From Betaproteobacteria bacterium (GTDB taxonomy: Bacteria > Pseudomonadota > Gammaproteobacteria > Burkholderiales > UBA9220), in NCBI GenBank assembly GCA_020061285.1, contig JAGUYQ010000237.1, positions 1 through 8,548 on the forward strand: 8,548 nt of DNA, in the 5' to 3' direction. Below, piece after piece: positions 1 to 8,548 of this stretch. Numbering within the stretch: position 1 is the first letter of the stretch; each line of letters starts with the position of its first letter. Made by a program: the position numbers and the translations under genes. A model generated the notes under the pieces. It ran no database searches. It was given only the letters and a program-made list of their open reading frames with translations, and was not told the DNA's origin.

Positions 1-72
1 CAGGGCGGCGCAGATGAGCAATCGGTGGGACACGGACTTGGAGGCCGGGGCGGTGATGATGGTCGCGTTCAT
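1..72 (-). CDS. aroA: 3-phosphoshikimate 1-carboxyvinyltransferase (EPSP synthase), N-terminal 24 codons only
   Basis: Only the first 24 codons lie in the window and the frame runs open through base 1. The translation begins MNATIITAPASKSVSHR, which fits the start of EPSP synthases: a short strand followed by the conserved SKSxSxR phosphoenolpyruvate/shikimate-3-phosphate binding motif (Lys12, Ser13, Arg17). The enzyme transfers enolpyruvyl from phosphoenolpyruvate to shikimate 3-phosphate in the cytoplasm, two steps before prephenate. The ATG overlaps the pheA stop as ATGA, so the two genes are probably translationally coupled and cotranscribed. The identity rests on this short piece plus the operon context, which is the gene order I know from Desulfovibrio. 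The rest of the gene cannot be judged here. Confidence 0.85.
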   Translation of the reverse strand, partial: MNATIITAPASKSVSHRLLICAAL

Positions 73-1232
73 TCCTCGATGACCTCCGATTTTCCGGACA
101 CGTCGATATGCGGCCCGGCCGGGTAGCAGCCCAGGATGCGCAGGCTGTGGGTGCATTCGCGCAGTTCGTCCAGGAGCCTGGCGTATTCGGCCCGGCTTAG
201 GTCGCACTGCAGGTCGGCAAAAAACACGTACTTCCATTTCTCGCCCCGAAACGGCCGGGATTCGAGCTTGGTCATGTTGATGTCGCGCCCGGCCAGCTTT
301 TCCAGGACCGCGTGCAGGGCCCCGGGCCTGTCCGGGAGGTTGAAGAGGATGGAGGTCTTGTCCCGGTTTTCCTGCTTGGTGTCGCTTGGGCCGATGATCA
401 AAAACCGGGTCCAGTTGTCGGGCAGGTCTTCGATGTGGCTGGCCAGGACGTTCAAGCCGTGCATCTCGCCCAGGCGGCTGTGCCCGATGGCTGCGGCCGT
501 GGGGGTTTTCAGGATGCGCAGGGCGGCGGCGGCGGTGCTGTCCGTGGGGATGATCTTCACGCCCGGCAGGTTGGCCCGCAGCCATCCGGCGCACTGGGCC
601 AGGGGCTGGGGGTGGGAGTAGACGGTCCGTATCCGGGCCAGTTCCGTGGCCTTGGAGAGCAGGGAATGGCTGATCTTGCAGTAGACCTCGGCCTGGACGA
701 AGACGTCGTGGCGCATAAAGAGGTCCAGGCTCTGGCCCACGGTGCCTTGCAGGGAGTTTTCCAGGGGAACGAGCCCCAGGTCCGCCTCGCGGGTGGCCAC
801 GGCGGCGAACACGTCGTCGATGGAGGGCTTGGGCTCGAACTCCCCGGCCCGGCCCAGGGTGGCCATGGCCGCGAAGTGGGAGAACGTGCCCTCGGGACCG
901 AGGAAGACGACCTTTTCCGGGCGTTGCAGGCGGCGGGAGGAGGACAGGATCTCGCGGTAGATGATGCGCAGGTGCTCGGCGGGCAGGGGACCGGAGTTTT
1001 CGGCCACCAGACGTTTGAGAACCTCCTTTTCGCGAAAGGGCTTGAACACGGCCTGGTGGGTGCCGTCCTTGCGTTTGCCGACCTCGATGCTGGCCGCGGC
1101 CCGGCGGTTGAGAAGCGCCAGGATCTGGTCGTCGATGGCGTCGATGTCCCGGCGCACCCCGGCCAGGAACCCCTCCAGGGCCTCGGGGGAGGCGGCGGCA
1201 GGGGCGGCGGGTGAGGGCTTTTTGGCGGCCAT
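69..1232 (-). CDS. pheA: Bifunctional chorismate mutase / prephenate dehydratase (P-protein) with ACT domain
   Basis: A 387-residue protein converting chorismate to prephenate and then to phenylpyruvate, the precursor of phenylalanine. An Ala/Pro-rich tail (about 1-18) precedes an AroQ chorismate mutase domain (about 20-105), where Arg27, Arg44 and Lys55 align with E. coli catalytic Arg11, Arg28 and Lys39. The dehydratase domain (about 107-282) shows FLGPEGTFS (110-118), a VPLENS motif (155-160) and the catalytic Thr-Arg-Phe (275-277). A C-terminal ACT domain (about 293-372) carries GALH (304-307) and ESRP (324-327), the family's Phe-binding motifs, so feedback inhibition by phenylalanine is likely. 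Length and domain order are normal for P-proteins. An AAGGAGG ribosome site lies inside the end of the upstream gene, 8 bases before the ATG. The gap to that gene is 3 bases, and the stop overlaps aroA. Confidence 0.96.
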   Translation of the reverse strand: MAAKKPSPAAPAAASPEALEGFLAGVRRDIDAIDDQILALLNRRAAASIEVGKRKDGTHQAVFKPFREKEVLKRLVAENSGPLPAEHLRIIYREILSSSRRLQRPEKVVFLGPEGTFSHFAAMATLGRAGEFEPKPSIDDVFAAVATREADLGLVPLENSLQGTVGQSLDLFMRHDVFVQAEVYCKISHSLLSKATELARIRTVYSHPQPLAQCAGWLRANLPGVKIIPTDSTAAAALRILKTPTAAAIGHSRLGEMHGLNVLASHIEDLPDNWTRFLIIGPSDTKQENRDKTSILFNLPDRPGALHAVLEKLAGRDINMTKLESRPFRGEKWKYVFFADLQCDLSRAEYARLLDELRECTHSLRILGCYPAGPHIDVSGKSEVIEE

Positions 1233-1235
1233 GGC

Positions 1236-2210
1236 TCAGCCCTCCTTGATGTCTTCGGCGATGCGCATGCCGAAATGGCGTCCGGCCACGTCCGTGCGGC
1301 ACAGGATCTCGTCGCCCACGCGCAGGGAAACCACGCTCACGGGAGAACCGTCGGGCGTGACCAGCCGGATGGTCTCGGCGTTTTGCAGGAAGATGCGGCC
1401 CTCGGTGTCGCCAATATTTGCGGCGATGAGCAGCATGGGCCGCACCTCCACCTTGACCCGGCCCACCACGGCCAGGGAGGTCTCGCCCGTGGCCGAGACG
1501 ATGAGCACCTCGTCGCCTGCGGCCAGTTCCTCCAGGTAGCGGGTTCTGTCCCCGGGCATGGCGGCGTAGGCATGCACGGCCCCGGCGTTGATGCGGAAGG
1601 GCCGGGCGGCCACGTAGGGGTTGGACTCGGTCTCGGCATGGACCAGGAAGGTAAACGCGCTGGAATTGCCCACCAGCATGCCCTGGCCGGTGCGCAGCAT
1701 GGAGATGGTGTCCACGCAGACCCGGTGCCCCAGGCCCACGGGGGTGATCGCGGTGACCACGGCCGGGGTCAGGGACATGGACCCCTGGCTGATTTTGAGT
1801 TCGGCCACGATGCGTTTGAGGTCGGCTGCTCCCTCGGGCAACACCAGGATGCGGTCCACGCCGCGCTCCAGGATGCCTGCGGCCAGCCTGGCCTCGGCCA
1901 GGCTGGCGGCCTCAAGCCCCACGCCCGCGACCTGGGCCAGGATGTTTTCCACGGGGATGATCTCGCAGCCGCGCGCCAGAAAGACCGTTTCGCCCTGGCG
2001 GATGCGGCGCACGGCCTCTTCCTCGTCGGCCTTGCAGGCCACGGCGATGATGGCCGCCTCGGACAGGGGGACCACCCGCACCCGGCCCAGGGCCTGGATT
2101 TTCTCCACGTCGTCGTCGTCGGCCAAAATGGCGTCCACGCCGGACTCCAGGGCCAGGGTGACGAACTTCTTGTCGAAGGGAACGGCTTTCGCCCAGATTT
2201 CCTTGCTCAT
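1236..2210 (-). CDS. aroB': 3-dehydroquinate synthase II (archaeal type)
   Basis: A 324-residue protein of the type II dehydroquinate synthase family (MJ1249-like), unrelated to ordinary AroB. In the known pathway it oxidatively deaminates and cyclises 2-amino-3,7-dideoxy-D-threo-hept-6-ulosonate (ADTH) to 3-dehydroquinate with NAD+. Family hallmarks visible are an N-terminal KEIWAKAVPFDKKFVT stretch (3-18), GLGHRVCVDT (about 159-168), GMLVGNSSAFTFLVHAE (about 177-193) and NPYVAARPFRINAGAVHAY (about 197-215), followed by a beta-rich C-terminal half. The length matches bacterial members. The start is supported by GAGG inside the upstream stop codon, 5 bases before the ATG. It sits 7 bases after the ADTH synthase gene, the enzyme that supplies its substrate, and 3 bases before pheA. 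Some annotations call this family simply 3-dehydroquinate synthase. Confidence 0.95.
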   Translation of the reverse strand: MSKEIWAKAVPFDKKFVTLALESGVDAILADDDDVEKIQALGRVRVVPLSEAAIIAVACKADEEEAVRRIRQGETVFLARGCEIIPVENILAQVAGVGLEAASLAEARLAAGILERGVDRILVLPEGAADLKRIVAELKISQGSMSLTPAVVTAITPVGLGHRVCVDTISMLRTGQGMLVGNSSAFTFLVHAETESNPYVAARPFRINAGAVHAYAAMPGDRTRYLEELAAGDEVLIVSATGETSLAVVGRVKVEVRPMLLIAANIGDTEGRIFLQNAETIRLVTPDGSPVSVVSLRVGDEILCRTDVAGRHFGMRIAEDIKEG

Positions 2211-2217
2211 GACGTCC

Positions 2218-3021
2218 TCATGTGTTGTCGGCCAGAAGTTCCATGGCCTGGTCCACGTCCCAGTTGCGCTGGACGATGCCGTGCAGGGCCTGGACGATGC
2301 GCGCCGGCTGGCGGTGCTGGAAGATGTTTCGGCCGATGGACAGGCCCGAGCCCCCGGCCTGGACCGAGTCGTGGGCCATCTGGATCAGGTCGCGGTCGTT
2401 GTCCATCTTGGGGCCGCCGGCGATGACCACGGGGATGCAGCAGGCCTCGGCCACCCGGGCGAAGCTGTCCACGTCGCCGGTATAGGGCACCTTGACCACG
2501 TCCGCGCCAAGCTCGGTGCCCACCCGGGCGCAGTGGCGCACGATCTCGGGATCGTATTCGTTTTTGATCTTGGGTCCCCTGGCGTAGACCATGGCCAAAA
2601 CCGGCATGCCCCATTCGGCGGCCTTGGAGGTGACCTCGCCGAAGTGTTCGAGCATGTGCCGCTCGGTCTCGTCGCCCAGGTTCACGTGCAGGGACACGCC
2701 GTCGGCCCCGAGCTTTAAGGCGTCTTCCACGGTGGCCACCAGGATCTTGGCGTTGGGATAGGGGGACAGGGCTGTCGAGGCGGAGAGGTGGATGATCAGC
2801 CCCACGTCGCGGCCCCGGCCGCGATGGGAGCAGCGGGGCAGGCCCTTGTGCATGAGCACGGCGTTGGCCCCGCCCTCGGCCACCTGGTTGACGGCCTCGC
2901 GCATGTCGATCAGGCCGTCGATGGGGCCCACGGTGACGCCGTGGTCCATGGGCACGATGATGGTGCGGTGGGTGTTGCGGTTTAGGATGCGTTCGAGCCG
3001 GACGGCTTTTCCCAGAAGCAT
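2218..3021 (-). CDS. aroA': 2-amino-3,7-dideoxy-D-threo-hept-6-ulosonate (ADTH) synthase
   Basis: A class I aldolase-fold protein (267 residues from this start) that replaces DAHP synthase as the first step of aromatic synthesis. In the archaeal pathway it joins L-aspartate semialdehyde to a fructose-derived ketosugar phosphate to give ADTH. Visible motifs are [12 protein letters not shown] near the N-terminus with the catalytic Asp (residue 26), a Tyr in MVYARGPK (residue 146) and the Schiff-base Lys in DVVKVPYTG (residue 177). Their mutual spacing equals that of Asp33, Tyr153 and Lys184 as I recall them for the Methanocaldococcus enzyme MJ0400. A C-terminal [13 protein letters not shown] phosphate-binding segment is also present. 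Two ATGs are possible, at 3027 and 3021. GGAGG lies only 2 bases from the first but 8 from the second, so 3021 is preferred. It is the first structural gene, preceded by an attenuator. Confidence 0.94.
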
Positions 3022-3089
3022 GGCCATACCCTCCTTGCGGGTTGCGGTTTGGCCTCTCGGGGTCGCGGGTGACCGGGAAGCCGACGGCC

Positions 3090-3130
3090 AAAAAAAAGGG
3101 CCGCCGGCGTTTCGAATCGCCCGCGGCCCT
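3090..3130 (-). terminator. Rho-independent terminator in the aro leader (attenuator, segments 3:4)
   Basis: On the minus strand, the 13-base arm AGGGCCGCGGGCG (3130-3118) pairs with CGCCGGCGGCCCT (3109-3097) through 12 of 13 positions (one G/G mismatch). The loop is 8 bases and the stem leads straight into eight T's (3097-3090). It is a strong intrinsic terminator lying before, not after, the aro genes: 68 bases upstream of the ADTH synthase start and 25 bases downstream of the leader-peptide stop codon. Its 5' arm can alternatively pair with an upstream segment, as expected of an attenuator. No upstream minus-strand gene exists that it could plausibly serve as an ordinary terminator. Confidence 0.92.
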
Positions 3131-3225
3131 TGGAGAGGCTTTCGTGCAGTTCTGGTTACACCGCACCCCTCCCCCGACCACGGGCGTGGCTAAACCAGTA
3201 CCAAAAATAAAAACCGGAGGTCGGG
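3118..3225 (-). promoter_or_regulatory. Attenuator alternative RNA pairings: protector (1:2) and antiterminator (2:3)
   Basis: Segment 1, CCCGACC (3225-3219, leader codons 7-9), is the exact complement of segment 2 GGTCGGG (3179-3173), giving a 7-bp protector hairpin that loops out the aromatic codons. Segment 2 read slightly upstream, CGCCCGTGGTC (3186-3176), can instead form 11 consecutive pairs (nine Watson-Crick, two G-U) with GGCCGCGGGCG-type sequence at 3128-3118, the 5' arm of the terminator. The two pairings share 3179-3176 and are mutually exclusive. The layout follows the trp model: a ribosome stalled on the aromatic codons masks segment 1, frees segment 2 to capture the terminator arm, and transcription continues. 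The pairings were found by eye; no folding energies were computed. Confidence 0.8.
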
Positions 3226-3245
3226 ATGAGGTTTTGGTGTTGCAT
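3156..3245 (-). CDS. Aromatic amino-acid operon leader peptide (29 aa, seven consecutive aromatic residues)
   Basis: A 29-codon reading frame with ATG at 3245 and TAA at 3158-3156. It begins [11 protein letters not shown] and then reads F-Y-F-W-Y-W-F as codons 12-18 (3212-3192), followed by an Arg/Gly-rich tail. A run of three Phe, two Tyr and two Trp is what transcription-attenuation leader peptides of aromatic operons look like, except that here all three amino acids are mixed. It lies between a sigma70-like promoter and an intrinsic terminator ahead of the ADTH synthase gene. No Shine-Dalgarno sequence precedes the ATG (the upstream bases are C/T-rich), and an in-frame TGA lies upstream in the -35 region, so this ATG is the only sensible start. 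The peptide itself is presumably without function; its translation is the sensor. Inferred from sequence alone, but the fit is unusually complete. Confidence 0.9.
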
Positions 3246-3252
3246 GGGGAAG

Positions 3253-3282
3253 GGGATAGTCGGGGGCAGCCGGGATTGTCAA
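3253..3282 (-). promoter_or_regulatory. Predicted promoter of the aro operon and its leader
   Basis: A perfect -35 TTGACA (3282-3277) and a weak -10 TATCCC (3258-3253) are separated by 18 bases. The expected start of transcription, about seven bases past the -10, falls at 3246 or 3245; A3245 is the A of the leader-peptide ATG. The leader from there to the ADTH synthase start is about 224 bases. The -10 matches only three of six consensus positions, so the exact start is uncertain, but no better pair was seen within 100 bases upstream of the leader peptide. Confidence 0.6.
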
Positions 3283-3539: not shown

Positions 3540-3568
3540 TTGACGTGGACCCGGGAGCTTGTTAAATT
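3540..3568 (+). promoter_or_regulatory. Predicted sigma70-type promoter of aprBA
   Basis: TTGACG (3540-3545, five of six consensus bases) and TAAATT (3563-3568, four of six) are separated by exactly 17 bases. Transcription would begin near 3575, leaving a leader of about 258 bases before aprB. The -10 lies inside a Rex-like palindrome, which is the usual geometry for repression. An AT-rich stretch downstream (TATATT at 3606-3611) could be a second -10 but lacks a -35 at proper spacing. Confidence 0.6.
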
Positions 3569-3833: not shown

Positions 3834-4325
3834 ATGCCTACCTTTGTTGATCCGAGCAAGTGTGACGGATGCAAAGGCGGTGAGAAAACCGCGTGCATGT
3901 ACATTTGCCCCAATGACCTGATGATCCTCGATCCCCAGGAAATGAAGGCTTACAACCAGGAACCGTCGGCTTGTTGGGAGTGCTACTCCTGCGTGAAGAT
4001 CTGCCCCCAGGGCGCCATCGGCGCCCGTCCCTACGCCGACTTCGCTCCCATGGGCGGCACCTCGATCCCCATGCGGTCGGCCGACTCCATCATGTGGACC
4101 ATCAAGTTCCGCAACGGCAACATCAAACGCTACAAGTTCCCCATCCGGACCACCCCGGAAGGCTCCATCAAGCCCTATGACGGCAAGCCCGAAGGCGCCA
4201 ATCTGGAAGACGAGCTGCTGTTCACCGAGACCAAGCTCATCGAGCCCAAGGAAGTCCTGATGAAGGCCTTTCCGGTGACCGATTCCGATACCGTGCAGTG
4301 CTGGCTTGACGGTTTCTGCAAGTAA
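3834..4325 (+). CDS. aprB: Adenylylsulfate (APS) reductase, beta subunit (iron-sulfur)
   Basis: A 163-residue ferredoxin-like subunit of dissimilatory APS reductase that passes electrons to the FAD of AprA. Two [4Fe-4S] motifs are clear: Cys10, Cys13, Cys21 and Cys25 in the first, and Cys47, Cys50, Cys53 and Cys57 (CxxCxxCxxxCP) in the second. Trp48 matches the tryptophan described between the two clusters in the Archaeoglobus enzyme. The rest forms the beta-sheet and the extended C-terminal arm that wraps AprA, ending QCWLDGFCK. Length is typical for the family. The start is supported by GGAGG 6 bases upstream. It lies 38 bases before aprA in the usual beta-alpha order, behind its own promoter. 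The protein is cytoplasmic with no signal peptide. Confidence 0.98.
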   Translation: MPTFVDPSKCDGCKGGEKTACMYICPNDLMILDPQEMKAYNQEPSACWECYSCVKICPQGAIGARPYADFAPMGGTSIPMRSADSIMWTIKFRNGNIKRYKFPIRTTPEGSIKPYDGKPEGANLEDELLFTETKLIEPKEVLMKAFPVTDSDTVQCWLDGFCK

Positions 4326-4363
4326 TCTTTGCACTACAAGAAAATAATAGGAGGAGACATCCT

Positions 4364-6352
4364 ATGCCTACCATTCCCGTTAAGGAAGAGCCCAAAGGTA
4401 TCGCCCTTGCCGAACCGGAACTGATCGAAAAAGAGGTCGACATTCTCATGGTCGGCGGCGGCATGGGTACCTGCGGCACGGCGTACGAGGCCTGCCGCTG
4501 GGCCGACAAGATCGGCGGGATCAAGATCATGCTGCTGGACAAGGCCTCCCTCGAGCGTTCCGGCGCCGTGGCCCAGGGCCTTTCGGCCATCAACACCTAC
4601 ATCGGCGAGAACCCGGTCGACGACTACGTGCGCATGGTCCGCACCGACCTGATGGGCCTCGTGCGCGAAGATCTGATCTTCGACCTGGGCCGTCACGTGG
4701 ACGACTCCGTGCACCTGTTCGAGGAGTGGGGCCTGCCCTGCTGGGTGAAAGAAGGCGACCACAACCTGGATGGCGCTGCGGCCAAGGCCAAGGGCGTGTC
4801 GCTGCGCACCGGCGCGGCCCCTGTCCGCTCCGGCCGTTGGCAGATCATGATCAACGGTGAGTCCTACAAGTGCATCGTGGCCGAGGCGGCGAAAAACGCC
4901 CTGGGCCAGGATCGCTACCTTGAGCGCGTGTTCATCGTGAAGCTGCTTCTGGACGCCAACGAGAAGAACCGTATCGCCGGCGCCGTGGGCTTCTCCACCC
5001 GCGAAAACAAGGTGTACGTGTTCAAGACCAACGCCATGGTCGTGGCCTGCGGCGGCGCGGTCAACGTGTACCGCCCCCGGTCCACTGGTGAAGGCATGGG
5101 TCGCGCCTGGTACCCGGTGTGGAACTCCGGTTCCACCTACACCATGTGCGCCCAGGTCGGCGCCGAGATGACCATGATGGAAAACCGCTTCGTCCCCGCC
5201 CGTTTCAAGGACGGTTACGGCCCGGTCGGCGCCTGGTTCCTGCTTTTCAAGGCCAAAGCCACCAACGCCAAGGGCGAAGACTACTGCGTCACCAACCGCG
5301 CCATGCTCAAGCCCTACGAGGATCGCGGCTACGCCAAGGGTCACGTCATCCCGACCTGTCTGCGTAACCACATGATGCTTCGCGAAATGCGCGAAGGTCG
5401 CGGCCCCATCTACATGGACACCGCCACCGCGCTGCAGACCACCTTCGCCAAGCTGACCCCCGAGCAGCAGAAGCACCTGGAAGCCGAGGCCTGGGAAGAC
5501 TTCCTCGACATGTGCGTCGGTCAGGCCAACCTGTGGGCCTGCATGAACATCGAGCCCGAAGTCAGCGGCTCCGAGATCATGCCCACCGAGCCGTACCTGC
5601 TCGGCTCCCACTCCGGCTGCTGCGGCATCTGGGTCTCCGGCCCCGACGAGAAGTGGGTTCCGGACGACTACAAAGTCAAGGCCGACAACGGCAAAGTCTA
5701 CAACCGCATGACCACGGTCAACGGCCTGTGGACCTGCGCTGACGGCGTTGGCGCCTCCGGCCACAAGTTCTCCTCCGGTTCCCATGCTGAAGGCCGCATC
5801 GTCGGCAAGCAGATGGTGCGCTGGGTGGTGGACCACAAGGACTTCAAGCCGGCCCTGAAGCAGAGCGCCGCCGAGCTGGCCAAGGAAATCTACCAGCCGT
5901 GGCACACCTTCAAGGACGGCGTGGCCGCCTCGACGGATCCCATCGTCAACCCCAACTACATCAGCCCGCACAACTTCATGATGCGCCTGGTGAAGTGCAC
6001 GGACGAGTACGGCGGAGGCTGCGCCACCCTGTACACCACGTCCAAGACCCTGCTGGACACCGGCTTCAAGTTGCTGCAGATGCTGGAAGAGGACAGCCAG
6101 AAGCTGGCCGCCCGCGACCTGCACGAACTGATGCGCTGCTGGGAGCAGTACCACCGCCTGTGGACCGTTCGTCTGCACATGACCCACATCATGTTCCGCG
6201 AAGAAACCCGCTACCCGGGCTTCTACTATCGCGGCGACTTCCTGGGCCTGGACGACAGCAAGTGGAAGTGCTTCGTCAACTCCGTCTACGACCCGGAAAC
6301 CAAGGAAACCAAGGTCTTCAAGAAGACCTACCACCAGATCATTCCGGACTAA
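4364..6352 (+). CDS. aprA: Adenylylsulfate (APS) reductase, alpha subunit (FAD)
   Basis: A 662-residue flavoprotein of the fumarate reductase/succinate dehydrogenase family and the catalytic subunit that reduces APS to AMP and sulfite (energy-yielding sulfate respiration, cytoplasm). The N-terminus carries the FAD dinucleotide motif GGGMGTCG (31-38), with an acidic Asp59 ending the second strand (LLD). Arg280 in RFVPARFK and His416 in GSHSGCCGIWVSG correspond by context to the substrate-binding Arg265 and His398 of the Archaeoglobus enzyme. A GHKFSSGSHAEGR segment (466-478) closes the FAD-binding part, and the C-terminal helical region is full length. AGGAGG lies 9 bases before the ATG. Codon use is strongly biased to C-ending codons, as expected of an abundant protein. 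A perfect terminator follows 11 bases after the stop. Confidence 0.99.
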   Translation: MPTIPVKEEPKGIALAEPELIEKEVDILMVGGGMGTCGTAYEACRWADKIGGIKIMLLDKASLERSGAVAQGLSAINTYIGENPVDDYVRMVRTDLMGLVREDLIFDLGRHVDDSVHLFEEWGLPCWVKEGDHNLDGAAAKAKGVSLRTGAAPVRSGRWQIMINGESYKCIVAEAAKNALGQDRYLERVFIVKLLLDANEKNRIAGAVGFSTRENKVYVFKTNAMVVACGGAVNVYRPRSTGEGMGRAWYPVWNSGSTYTMCAQVGAEMTMMENRFVPARFKDGYGPVGAWFLLFKAKATNAKGEDYCVTNRAMLKPYEDRGYAKGHVIPTCLRNHMMLREMREGRGPIYMDTATALQTTFAKLTPEQQKHLEAEAWEDFLDMCVGQANLWACMNIEPEVSGSEIMPTEPYLLGSHSGCCGIWVSGPDEKWVPDDYKVKADNGKVYNRMTTVNGLWTCADGVGASGHKFSSGSHAEGRIVGKQMVRWVVDHKDFKPALKQSAAELAKEIYQPWHTFKDGVAASTDPIVNPNYISPHNFMMRLVKCTDEYGGGCATLYTTSKTLLDTGFKLLQMLEEDSQKLAARDLHELMRCWEQYHRLWTVRLHMTHIMFREETRYPGFYYRGDFLGLDDSKWKCFVNSVYDPETKETKVFKKTYHQIIPD

Positions 6353-6363
6353 AGATGCGCATG

Positions 6364-6397
6364 ACGGCCGCGGGCGTAACGCCCGCGGCCGTTTTTT
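6364..6397 (+). terminator. Rho-independent terminator of aprBA
   Basis: ACGGCCGCGGGCG (6364-6376) and CGCCCGCGGCCGT (6380-6392) form a perfect 13-bp stem with a 3-base TAA loop, followed by a run of six T's (6392-6397, the first also closing the stem). It starts 11 bases after the aprA stop and should end most aprBA transcripts before qmoA, allowing much more AprBA than Qmo to be made from neighbouring genes. Confidence 0.95.
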
Positions 6398-6428
6398 AAC
6401 GGTCTTATCCGGGACGACCGACCGGGCG

Positions 6429-6457
6429 TTGACGGAGCCGTCCGCGGGGTCTATCGT
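6429..6457 (+). promoter_or_regulatory. Predicted promoter of qmoAB
   Basis: TTGACG (6429-6434, five of six consensus bases) and TATCGT (6452-6457, four of six) are separated by exactly 17 bases. The start would fall near 6464, giving a leader of about 45 bases to the qmoA ATG. The -35 is identical to that predicted for aprBA. A CCGCG/CGCGG inverted repeat (6442-6446 and 6458-6462) brackets the -10 and may be incidental. No Rex-like site was seen here. Confidence 0.55.
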
Positions 6458-6508
6458 CGCGGATCAGGCCGTTTGCATGCGGGCTATAACCACTGCCGGG
6501 AGGTTGCG

Positions 6509-7750
6509 ATGTCGAGCAGCGCGATACTCGTCGTCGGCGGCGGCTTCAGCGGTATCACTGCCGCCCTGGAAGCCGCTGAAGTCGGCCACGAAGTGTACAT
6601 TGTGGAGAAAAACCCTTTTCTGGGCGGCCGGGTGATGCAGCTCAACAAGTATTTTCCCAAGCTGTGCCCCCCGTCCTGCGGACTGGAAATCCAGTTCCAG
6701 CGCATCAAGAACAACAAGAACGTCAAGTTTTTCACCATGGCCGAGGTGACCAAGGTCACCGGTAAGCCCGGCGACTACGACGTGACCATCGCCATCCGAC
6801 CCCGCTTCGTGGAGCCCGGCAGCCTTGACCTGTCCGATGCGGCCGAGGCGCTTTCCAAGGACGTGCCAAGCGATTTCGAACTGGGCATGGGCAGCCGCAA
6901 GGCCCTGTACATGGACGTGCCGTTCGCCTTCCCCAATCGCTACGTCCTGGACAAGGACAACTGTTCGAAAGAGGATCTGGCCTCCCTTGCCGGAACCGAC
7001 ATCATCAACATGGGCGACGCTCCCAAGGACGTGACGGTCAAGGTCGGCAGCATCATCTACGCCACGGGCTGGAAGCCCTACGATGTCACCCGCCTGACCA
7101 ACCTGGGCGCCGGAACCATCAAAAACTGCGTCTCCAACATGCAGCTCGAGCGCCTGGCCTCCCCCAGCGGCCCCACGAACGGCTGCATCCTGCGTCCCTC
7201 CGACGGACGCGCCCCGCGCTCCATCGCCTTCGTGCAGTGCGCCGGTTCACGCGACGAGAATCACCTGAACTACTGTTCCTACATCTGCTGCATGGCCTCG
7301 CTCAAGCAGGCGGCCTACGTCCGCGAGCAGTATCCCAGCGCGCGCATCACCATCTATTATATCGACCTGCGCACCCCCGGCCGCTACGAGAACTTCGCCA
7401 AAAAGATCCTGGCCGACGACAAGATCGCAACCGTCAAGGGCAAGGTCGCGGCGGTAGCCGAGGACTCTGGAACCGGCGATGTGCTGTTGACGGTGGAGGA
7501 CGCCGTGACCGGGATCAAGTCCGAGAACCGGTTCGAGATGGCGGTCCTGGCCACGGGCATGCAGCCCAGCCTGGCCGGGCAGAAGCTGCCGGTGGACGTG
7601 GCCCTGGACGAGATGGGATTTCTCGTGGGCGGCGAGGAGAAAGGCATCTTTGCCGCTGGGTGCGCCAAGTCGCCGCTTGATGTCATGAAGTCGGCCCAAT
7701 CCGCGACCGGCGCGGCCATGAAAGCGATTCAAACGGTGAGAGGGAGGTAG
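6509..7750 (+). CDS. qmoA: Quinone-interacting membrane-bound oxidoreductase subunit QmoA (HdrA-like flavoprotein)
   Basis: A 413-residue soluble FAD protein of the Qmo complex, which carries electrons from menaquinol toward APS reductase. It resembles heterodisulfide reductase HdrA: an N-terminal GGGFSG dinucleotide motif (10-15), an acidic Glu33 at the end of the second strand, FLGGRVMQL (37-45), and a CAGSRDEN...YCSYICC segment with Cys244, Cys256, Cys260 and Cys261. It ends with the HdrA-like GIFAAGCAKSP flavin-closing motif. The ferredoxin-type cysteine cluster that HdrA has after its IYIP-like segment is missing; only Cys152 remains there. ATG 6509 is chosen over an in-frame ATG at 6473 because GGGAGG lies 5 bases before it and HdrA-like similarity starts at once. 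It sits 6 bases before qmoB and 156 bases after aprA, beyond a terminator. Confidence 0.96.
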   Translation: MSSSAILVVGGGFSGITAALEAAEVGHEVYIVEKNPFLGGRVMQLNKYFPKLCPPSCGLEIQFQRIKNNKNVKFFTMAEVTKVTGKPGDYDVTIAIRPRFVEPGSLDLSDAAEALSKDVPSDFELGMGSRKALYMDVPFAFPNRYVLDKDNCSKEDLASLAGTDIINMGDAPKDVTVKVGSIIYATGWKPYDVTRLTNLGAGTIKNCVSNMQLERLASPSGPTNGCILRPSDGRAPRSIAFVQCAGSRDENHLNYCSYICCMASLKQAAYVREQYPSARITIYYIDLRTPGRYENFAKKILADDKIATVKGKVAAVAEDSGTGDVLLTVEDAVTGIKSENRFEMAVLATGMQPSLAGQKLPVDVALDEMGFLVGGEEKGIFAAGCAKSPLDVMKSAQSATGAAMKAIQTVRGR

Positions 7751-7756
7751 AGGGCG

Positions 7757-8548
7757 ATGGCCGAAAAAATCGGTGTGTATATAGATGAGTCCAGCGTCGC
7801 CCCGCATCTGGACGCGGGAGAGCTGGCCGCCTTCGTCAAGGAAAAGCTCGGCGGCACGTGCCCGGTCATCAAGACCCACAAGCGCCTTTCGAGCCCCGCC
7901 GCCGTGGCCGACATCAAAGCCGACATCGAGGCTGGCGGCATCGACGCCGTCCTGTTGTGCGGCACCTCGCCCCGGGTGGATTGGGACGTCTTCGACTTCG
8001 GCGACAAGGTGCTTGTGGACCGAGTCAACCTGCGCGAGTTCGGGGTGTTGGCCTACAAGAATCCCGACGGCAGCGCGCTCGGCAAGGACGAGCCGGCCCC
8101 GGATCTGCTCAAGATGCTGGCCCGGGACTACATCAAGATGGGCGTGATGAAGCTCACCAAGATGAAGGCCCCCGATCCCGAGATGGTCGAATCCGTCAAG
8201 ACCGTGCTGGTCATCGGCGGCGGTTTCACCGGTCTCAACGCGGCCCTGTCCGCCGTCAAGGGCGGCTTTGACGTGGTGCTGGTCGAAAAGACCGACGACC
8301 TGGGCGGCAAGGCCGCCAAGCAATACAAGACCTTTCCCATGGCCTATCCCTATGCCGAGGCCCACGCCATCGGCATCGAAAAGCTCATCGCCGAGGTCAC
8401 GGGCAACGCCAAAATCAAGGTGTTGACCGCAACCACCCTCAAAGAGCTTCAGGGCGCGCCCGGCAACTACACCGCCGTTTTCACCGGCCCGGGCGGCGAG
8501 ACCTCCGAGCCCGTGGGGGCCGTGGTCCTGGCCGCCGGATGGACCCCC
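7757..8548 (+). CDS. qmoB: Quinone-interacting membrane-bound oxidoreductase subunit QmoB, N-terminal 264 codons (cut by window end)
   Basis: An open frame of 264 codons running off the window; whole QmoB proteins are far longer (roughly 750 residues), with C-terminal iron-sulfur and MvhD-like parts not seen here. Residues 1-145 resemble the HdrA N-terminal domain (IGVYIDES at 5-12, CGTSPR at 68-73), but the CxCG iron-sulfur cysteines of HdrA are absent; only Cys35 and Cys68 occur. A FAD-binding domain follows with VLVIGGGFTG (150-159), an acidic Glu177 and LGGKA (182-186). GGAGG (7743-7747), overlapping the end of qmoA, lies 9 bases before the ATG, and the 6-base gap indicates cotranslation. 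It forms the Qmo complex with QmoA and the membrane subunit QmoC, presumably encoded just beyond the window. Confidence 0.95.
   Translation, partial: MAEKIGVYIDESSVAPHLDAGELAAFVKEKLGGTCPVIKTHKRLSSPAAVADIKADIEAGGIDAVLLCGTSPRVDWDVFDFGDKVLVDRVNLREFGVLAYKNPDGSALGKDEPAPDLLKMLARDYIKMGVMKLTKMKAPDPEMVESVKTVLVIGGGFTGLNAALSAVKGGFDVVLVEKTDDLGGKAAKQYKTFPMAYPYAEAHAIGIEKLIAEVTGNAKIKVLTATTLKELQGAPGNYTAVFTGPGGETSEPVGAVVLAAGWTP

Follow-up and report, generated by a model that had tools for sequence, protein, structure and literature searches.

A predicted ribosome-mediated attenuator with phenylalanine, tyrosine and tryptophan codons upstream of an ADTH synthase operon

Introduction

The leader of E. coli trp terminates transcription when it is not translated. 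The attenuators of ilvGMEDA and thrABC are multivalent, with several amino acids acting through one leader. In the same organism, the role of first enzyme in the aromatic pathway is held by DAHP synthase isozymes. Leaderless attenuation is reportedly known in C. glutamicum.

The described systems closest to the one considered here come from several bacterial groups. The aroR leader of C. glutamicum carries a Phe-Tyr-Phe run ahead of aroF, which encodes a DAHP synthase (PMC11802643, PMC4046766). In Acholeplasma, the uORFC-13-1 motif resides upstream of aroF and is predicted to consist of a Phe uORF and a terminator (PMC8632094). The attenuated RNA of S. meliloti trpLE(G) is leaderless, and is described as beginning at the ATG of its leader ORF (PMC7298713). 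A survey that included 10 Desulfovibrionales states that the attenuators covered by Rfam were limited to those for His, Leu, Thr and Trp (PMC3766115). TrpR and TyrR are reported to be absent outside the γ-proteobacteria (PMC5343134).

We have analysed a window of 8,548 nt, by which we mean the whole stretch of DNA under study, that carries an ADTH synthase (ADTHS) operon and its leader on the minus strand. Sequence and comparison point to a ribosome-mediated transcription attenuator of the trp type with three input amino acids, a reading to which we assign a probability of about 0.87. Such a device would probably allow a sulfate reducer to turn on the aromatic pathway when any one of Phe, Tyr and Trp is short. 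Among CC-licensed papers in PMC, we found no attenuator for all three aromatic amino acids and none in Desulfovibrio, and single cases may have been listed earlier. Within the searchable literature, it would rank as the first described case both of an attenuator reading Phe, Tyr and Trp at once and of one serving the ADTH/DHQ synthase II pathway.

Results

Gene context of the leader

The first structural gene of the operon (2218..3027, minus strand) encodes ADTH synthase (2-amino-3,7-dideoxy-D-threo-hept-6-ulosonate synthase; TIGR01949, 396 bits against a cut-off of 299; PF01791). As its start codon, the ATG at 3021, which lies 8 nt after AAGGAGG (3036–3030, minus strand), is a likelier choice than 3027. 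On the same strand there follow 3-dehydroquinate synthase II (DHQSII; 1236..2210; PF01959; NF002628, 554 bits, cut-off 508), pheA with its chorismate mutase, prephenate dehydratase and ACT domains (69..1232; PF01817, PF00800, PF01842), and the beginning of aroA for EPSP synthase (1..72), which is cut by the end of the window and is assigned from its reading frame and from relatives in which aroA follows pheA.

In two of the nearest relatives of the window, G002 and G003, the operon runs ADTHS-DHQSII-pheA-aroA-tyrA-trpEGDCFBA and, judged by its genes, is one that makes Phe, Tyr and Trp. From these genomes and G001 we infer how the operon of the window ends and which other ADTHS copies accompany it; in all three relatives there is a second ADTHS gene with a Tyr-type leader. 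The first-pass annotation had placed the operon at the entry of the common pathway. The operon is not confined to the common pathway, as it continues through pheA, aroA, tyrA and trpEGDCFBA in G002 and G003, and this output of all three amino acids is the better reason for three-way sensing.

Divergent genes occupy the plus strand from 3834 to 8548, starting about 590 nt from the leader ATG. They include genes for an iron-sulfur protein and a flavoprotein, and they resemble aprB and aprA followed by qmo genes. A promoter-like site lies at 3540–3568. At other loci (L117, L138, L141, L145, L156, L158 and L163, of which L117 and L138 are in the same genome), tandem duplicate ADTH synthase genes head the superoperon.

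Rfam gave no match at or above the gathering score in the window. Between 3060 and 3330 there were nine matches below that score, none to an attenuator family, and in 14 related loci Rfam found tRNAs only.

Leader ORF and terminator

The leader peptide ORF (3156..3245, minus strand) comprises 29 codons and a stop codon, with its ATG at 3245 and a TAA at 3158–3156. Codons 12–18 (3192..3212) read Phe-Tyr-Phe-Trp-Tyr-Trp-Phe; the 29-residue peptide and its aromatic run had been put forward in the first pass, and direct reading of the sequence bears them out. The operon is preceded, then, by a short ORF with a run of codons for its own products.

The predicted intrinsic terminator is a stem-loop at 3096..3131 with a tract of eight T at 3090..3097, both on the minus strand, and its stem begins 24 nt after the leader stop codon. 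The segment 3140–3085 folds at −32.6 kcal/mol (z = −3.9), and none of 200 shuffles was as good; the earlier proposal of an intrinsic terminator after the leader stop and ahead of the first structural gene is thus upheld. In an alignment of 35 diverse loci the stem is paired in 98.3% of cells, and a terminator lies between the ORF and the first gene in 77 of 78 loci. At L041 the aromatic ORF is present and the stem has no T run behind it. A mechanical terminator scan of the window listed nine sites, compared with 7.3 expected by chance, and the 3131–3096 stem was not among them, in our reading because the scan permits no mismatch within a stem and this stem has one.

Alternative folding

The leader ORF contains, 5 nt beyond its final aromatic codon, the segment CGCCCGTGGTC (3176..3186, minus strand), which is complementary to the 5′ arm of the terminator, which would serve as its 3′ partner in an alternative antiterminator. 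The corresponding segment begins a median of 5 nt past the aromatic run in 77 loci. In the alignment of 35 loci, the ten antiterminator pairs are formed in 95.7% of cells, compared with at most 43.1% for slid versions of the helix, and the covariation score of 0.296 (0.228 in shuffled alignments) was reached by none of 500 shuffles. Four pairs are changed on both sides, a number reached by 9 of 500 shuffles. When 161 distinct segment/arm combinations were compared with arms sampled from other loci, the terminator arm of the same locus was the better binder of the segment in 68.5% of comparisons. One position of the arm has a partner in the antiterminator in 147 of 149 loci, yet in 105 of 149 it has none in the terminator, and its antiterminator pairs are T:A in 86 loci, C:G in 41, T:G in 14, A:T in 5 and G:C in 1. 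It is these compensatory pair types that carry weight here, because the duplex program favours paired states.

Minimum free energy (MFE) folding extends the antiterminator into a longer hairpin that spans the stop codon, the inner 5′ part (3156..3175, minus strand) ending at that codon. For 3190–3118 the hairpin has an energy of −44.9 kcal/mol (z = −5.0; 0 of 200 shuffles), and across 169 loci a mean of 10.0 pairs bridge the stop codon, compared with 5.7 when the interiors are shuffled. This hairpin is visible only when the whole segment is folded; plain pairing of spacer to leader is not enriched, the spacer alone having no pairing excess with the segment before the stop codon (mean z +0.22). 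Compared with the terminator, the antiterminator hairpin has the lower MFE in 153 of 169 loci, and an untranslated leader should therefore read through, whereas that of E. coli trp terminates. In the same 169 loci, a putative protector (1:2) pairing would join the N-terminal codons to the stretch from the antiterminator to the stop codon (mean z −1.66, with 53% of loci below −1.5); with the antiterminator segment alone, these codons give a mean z of −0.75.

If a ribosome is assumed to cover 13 nt counted from the A-site codon, stalling at codons 12–16 would leave the antiterminator whole, while 0.82 of it would be kept at codon 17 and 0.55 at codon 18. A ribosome footprint placed at the stop codon misses about 70% of the outer antiterminator pairs, so that a block on antitermination would have to come from the inner helix across the stop codon. 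This proposed block is the least secure step of the mechanism. A value of 0.02 obtained for the ribosome at the stop codon was set aside, as it is true by construction.

Promoter and predicted transcription start

Upstream of the ORF on the minus strand are a −35 element, TTGACA (3277..3282), and a −10 element, TATCCC (3253..3258), separated by a spacer of 18 and ending seven bases ahead of the leader ATG. Inspection by eye of the region ahead of this ATG found no Shine-Dalgarno sequence. The fixed distance of the promoter suggests that the +1 is the A of the leader ATG and that the transcript is leaderless.

The same arrangement is found widely. Between −48 and −26 relative to the leader ATG, 134 of 169 loci have TTGACA with at least five of six positions matched, compared with 17 of 169 for the same interval upstream of ADTHS starts and 112 of 1059 for other ATGs. 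The gap from −10 to ATG is 6–8 in 110 of the 131 loci whose −10 begins with TA, and in 154 of 169 loci the leader ATG is directly preceded by C or T. A Shine-Dalgarno sequence is present in 13 of the 132 loci with the promoter at −41 to −35 and in 27 of the remaining 37. From this distribution of promoters and Shine-Dalgarno sequences, transcription of most copies probably starts on the ATG or within a very short distance of it, while an ordinary ribosome site would be used in some lineages.

Conservation of the leader

The sample for comparison consisted of 224 distinct ADTHS genes, from 80 named loci and further relatives, of which 222 had at least 250 nt upstream. A search blind to composition accepted any ATG ORF of 15–45 codons that ended 5–60 nt before a hairpin with a T run, and ranked candidates by promoter match, hairpin energy and length. 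It found a leader before 180 of the 222 genes and gave none for the other 42. At least four F/Y/W residues within seven codons are present in 169 of the 180 leaders and at least six in 139, the remaining 11 having fewer than four. For comparison, 2669 other ORFs of 15–45 residues from the 80 named loci reached four in 60 cases and six in 3, and the +1 and +2 frames of the 180 leaders reached six in 2 of 360.

Aromatic leaders precede 66 of the 83 distinct genes of the named loci, and the 17 genes without one include two tandem second copies, L033, which is cut by the end of its contig, and L041, which has no T run. Across the phylum, a protein match was obtained in 185 of 297 genomes, many of these being distant aldolases; among the best-scoring matches (L254–L281, some from the window's own family), 17 of 25 distinct genes have an aromatic leader. 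Standalone ADTH synthase copies at L198–L202, L205 and L207, which form one well-supported group in the tree, had no aromatic leader in the blind search, and at L198–L202 and L205 the leader seems to be truly absent. The first-pass annotation had made its proposal depend on the same upstream region in other Desulfovibrionales: there the ORF, the terminator and a covarying antiterminator are conserved, and aromatic leaders are found in other Desulfobacterota as well.

Leader codons and gene content

In order-level genomes, all 46 leaders of operons that include trp genes (47 genes, 28 genera) have F, Y and W in a nine-codon core. For operons that lack trp genes, the count with W is 6 of 11 leaders, and for standalone ADTHS genes (41 genes) it is 2 of 23. 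Fisher tests on these counts, uncorrected for kinship, give 9e-16 and 1.1e-4. The counts leave out 19 genes on short contigs, for which W is in 12 of 18 leaders. At the level of genera, every leader contains W in 28 of 28 that have trp operons, and W is absent from 4 of 10 genera without trp genes and 15 of 17 with standalone genes. Where one genome has both an operon leader and a standalone leader, W is solely in the operon leader in 21 of 22 genomes (16 genera), the trp content of these operons not always being known.

A larger set gives a similar picture, with W in 45 of 45 leaders of trp operons (47 genes), 6 of 11 of operons without trp genes and 3 of 40 of standalone genes (75 genes, 35 of which yielded no aromatic leader). 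The 40 standalone cores comprise 12 with Phe only, 6 with Tyr only, 19 with Phe and Tyr and 3 with all three. Excluded from this set are 82 genes whose contig ends too soon (W in 56 of 73 leaders), second copies of tandem pairs and genes with less than 250 nt upstream. This correspondence of leader codons with gene content supports the trivalent reading of the leader made in the first pass, although the persistence of W in 6 of 11 operons that lack trp genes counts against it.

On a quick tree of 200 ADTHS proteins, leader types, whose limits were set by the analyst, need 36 changes, and the well-supported branches alone force at least 6 changes for Phe, 3 for Tyr and 9 for the trivalent type. 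Leader type has therefore been switched repeatedly. Tyr-rich or Phe-rich leaders with a core lacking Trp also stand before second ADTH synthase genes (L112, L195, L196, L197; L137, L148, L154, L155, L157). By analogy with the E. coli DAHP synthases, these second enzymes are perhaps isozymes under separate control.

Leaders before other genes

Searched with a covariance model of the device, 93 of 99 genomes gave a match at E ≤ 0.1. We fetched 20 regions with matches away from ADTHS: several were unrelated terminators, and others lay before genes for an SSS symporter (PF00474) or a TRAP binding protein (PF03480). Matches at L325–L328 and L330 were dropped as tRNA-linked or unrelated terminators.

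By the blind method, of 21 SSS matches, one of which is partial, 11 have a leader, all rich in Phe, Tyr or both, and 10 have none. Phe-only or Tyr-rich leaders occur at L312–L317, L319, L320, L322 and L323, and in G059 one of two tandem SSS copies has a Phe leader and the other a Tyr leader, which suggests that the symporter takes up Phe or Tyr. TRAP binding protein (DctP) loci were matched in 59 of 99 genomes. Among the 30 best-scoring, Trp codons stand in tandem or in a cluster in the leaders of 10, and 20 have no Trp-type leader; loci with such Trp leaders are L321, L324, L353–L356, L358, L362, L365, L372, L381 and L382, and L318 has no clear Trp run. Their codons suggest that the TRAP system takes up Trp. 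At trpE loci outside ADTHS operons, tandem Trp codons are in the candidate leader in 9 of 11 cases, at L241 only in the second-ranked ORF. Of 4040 control ORFs, taken from loci among which are those of SSS and TRAP, 78 contain the WW pair.

Discussion

We propose that RNA polymerase starts, probably, at the A of the leader ATG and that a ribosome translates the leader. A shortage of charged tRNA-Phe, tRNA-Tyr or tRNA-Trp would stall the ribosome within codons 12–18 and leave 3186–3156 free to pair with the terminator 5′ arm in the antiterminator hairpin. Polymerase would then continue into ADTHS-DHQSII-pheA-aroA and, by homology, tyrA-trpEGDCFBA. When all three amino acids are plentiful, the ribosome would reach the stop codon and the terminator would halt transcription. 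As the stop codon lies inside the antiterminator hairpin, we propose that this hairpin cannot form with a ribosome there.

A working attenuator might nonetheless sense one amino acid in practice, for example Phe, with the other aromatic codons as passengers. There is precedent in C. glutamicum, for which Tyr supply is reported to have no effect on aroF behind the Phe-Tyr-Phe aroR leader (PMC11802643), and in the window Trp 17 and Phe 18 are the less well placed codons. Against it, 46 of 46 trp operon leaders retain W and 21 of 23 standalone leaders lack it, and Phe-only, Tyr-only and Trp leaders exist before other genes; leader composition thus appears to be selected, and we consider sensing of a single amino acid unlikely. 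Translational control, with leader hairpins gating the ADTHS ribosome binding site, would also fit a leader ORF and alternative structures. The stem and T tract are nevertheless upstream of, and separate from, the AAGGAGG before ADTHS, and the antiterminator ends at the terminator arm, which makes such gating very improbable; the 169 leaders themselves do not count against it, because the blind search required a hairpin followed by T. Slightly less credible still is a U-rich stretch retained for its role in the RNA, whether for a protein, for Rho or for ribosome pausing, with the aromatic peptide as by-product. The preference for TTT (0.78 of Phe codons) and TAT (0.67 of Tyr codons) in leaders, compared with 0.27 and 0.35 in ADTHS genes, does produce a U-rich run, though we also count this bias in favour of the attenuator. 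Trp TGG, however, is not U-rich and is the residue that goes with trp genes, leaders of the Tyr-only and Trp kinds are found in the same position upstream of other genes, and the pattern is missing from the other frames. A chance ORF ahead of an ordinary terminator, which would fit a terminator scan whose yield was close to that expected by chance and from which this site was missing, is already refuted by conservation, with the controls and covariation also against it, and no other gene seems to end here, because the nearest likely gene opposite (3834–4325) is on the plus strand.

With attenuation by all three amino acids as the preferred reading for the window, we lean on balance towards a wider one, in which the aromatic regulon of Desulfobacterota would use one modular attenuator whose codon set is rewritten for each target, with no dedicated regulator protein. 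The set would be Phe, Tyr and Trp for the full superoperon, Phe or Tyr for first-enzyme isozymes and the SSS symporter, and Trp for separate trp operons and the TRAP transporter. Most Desulfovibrionales copies would be leaderless and would read through by default, with termination dependent on a ribosome at the stop codon. If this is true, leader codons predict the substrates of uncharacterized transporters, and Phe, Tyr and Trp are proposed here for transporter genes of sulfate reducers. The reading also suggests how bacteria outside the γ-proteobacteria, which are reported to lack TrpR and TyrR, may regulate the aromatic pathway, and the natural variation in codon sets is a ready experiment on the integration of several tRNAs by one leader.

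Among known systems, aroR of C. glutamicum is alike in being an attenuator at the entry of the aromatic pathway (PMC11802643, PMC4046766). It differs in a run without Trp, in control of a DAHP synthase, in its phylum, and in that a response to Phe is reported there, and none to Tyr. The uORFC-13-1 motif likewise has a uORF and terminator ahead of the first pathway enzyme; as described, it carries Phe codons only, precedes another enzyme and comes from Acholeplasma and environmental sequences only (PMC8632094). S. meliloti trpLE(G) is leaderless, as is predicted here, and is described as responding to Trp only and controlling trpE(G) (PMC7298713). The ilvGMEDA and thrABC attenuators share multivalence with this leader, and serve the branched-chain and Thr/Ile pathways instead of the aromatic one. 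With E. coli trp and pheA, the locus has in common a leader ORF with regulatory codons and mutually exclusive antiterminator and terminator helices before the first structural gene (PMC11802643). It differs from both in reading three amino acids instead of one, in an antiterminator 5′ segment that lies inside the ORF, so that the hairpin spans the stop codon, and probably in having no 5′ UTR.
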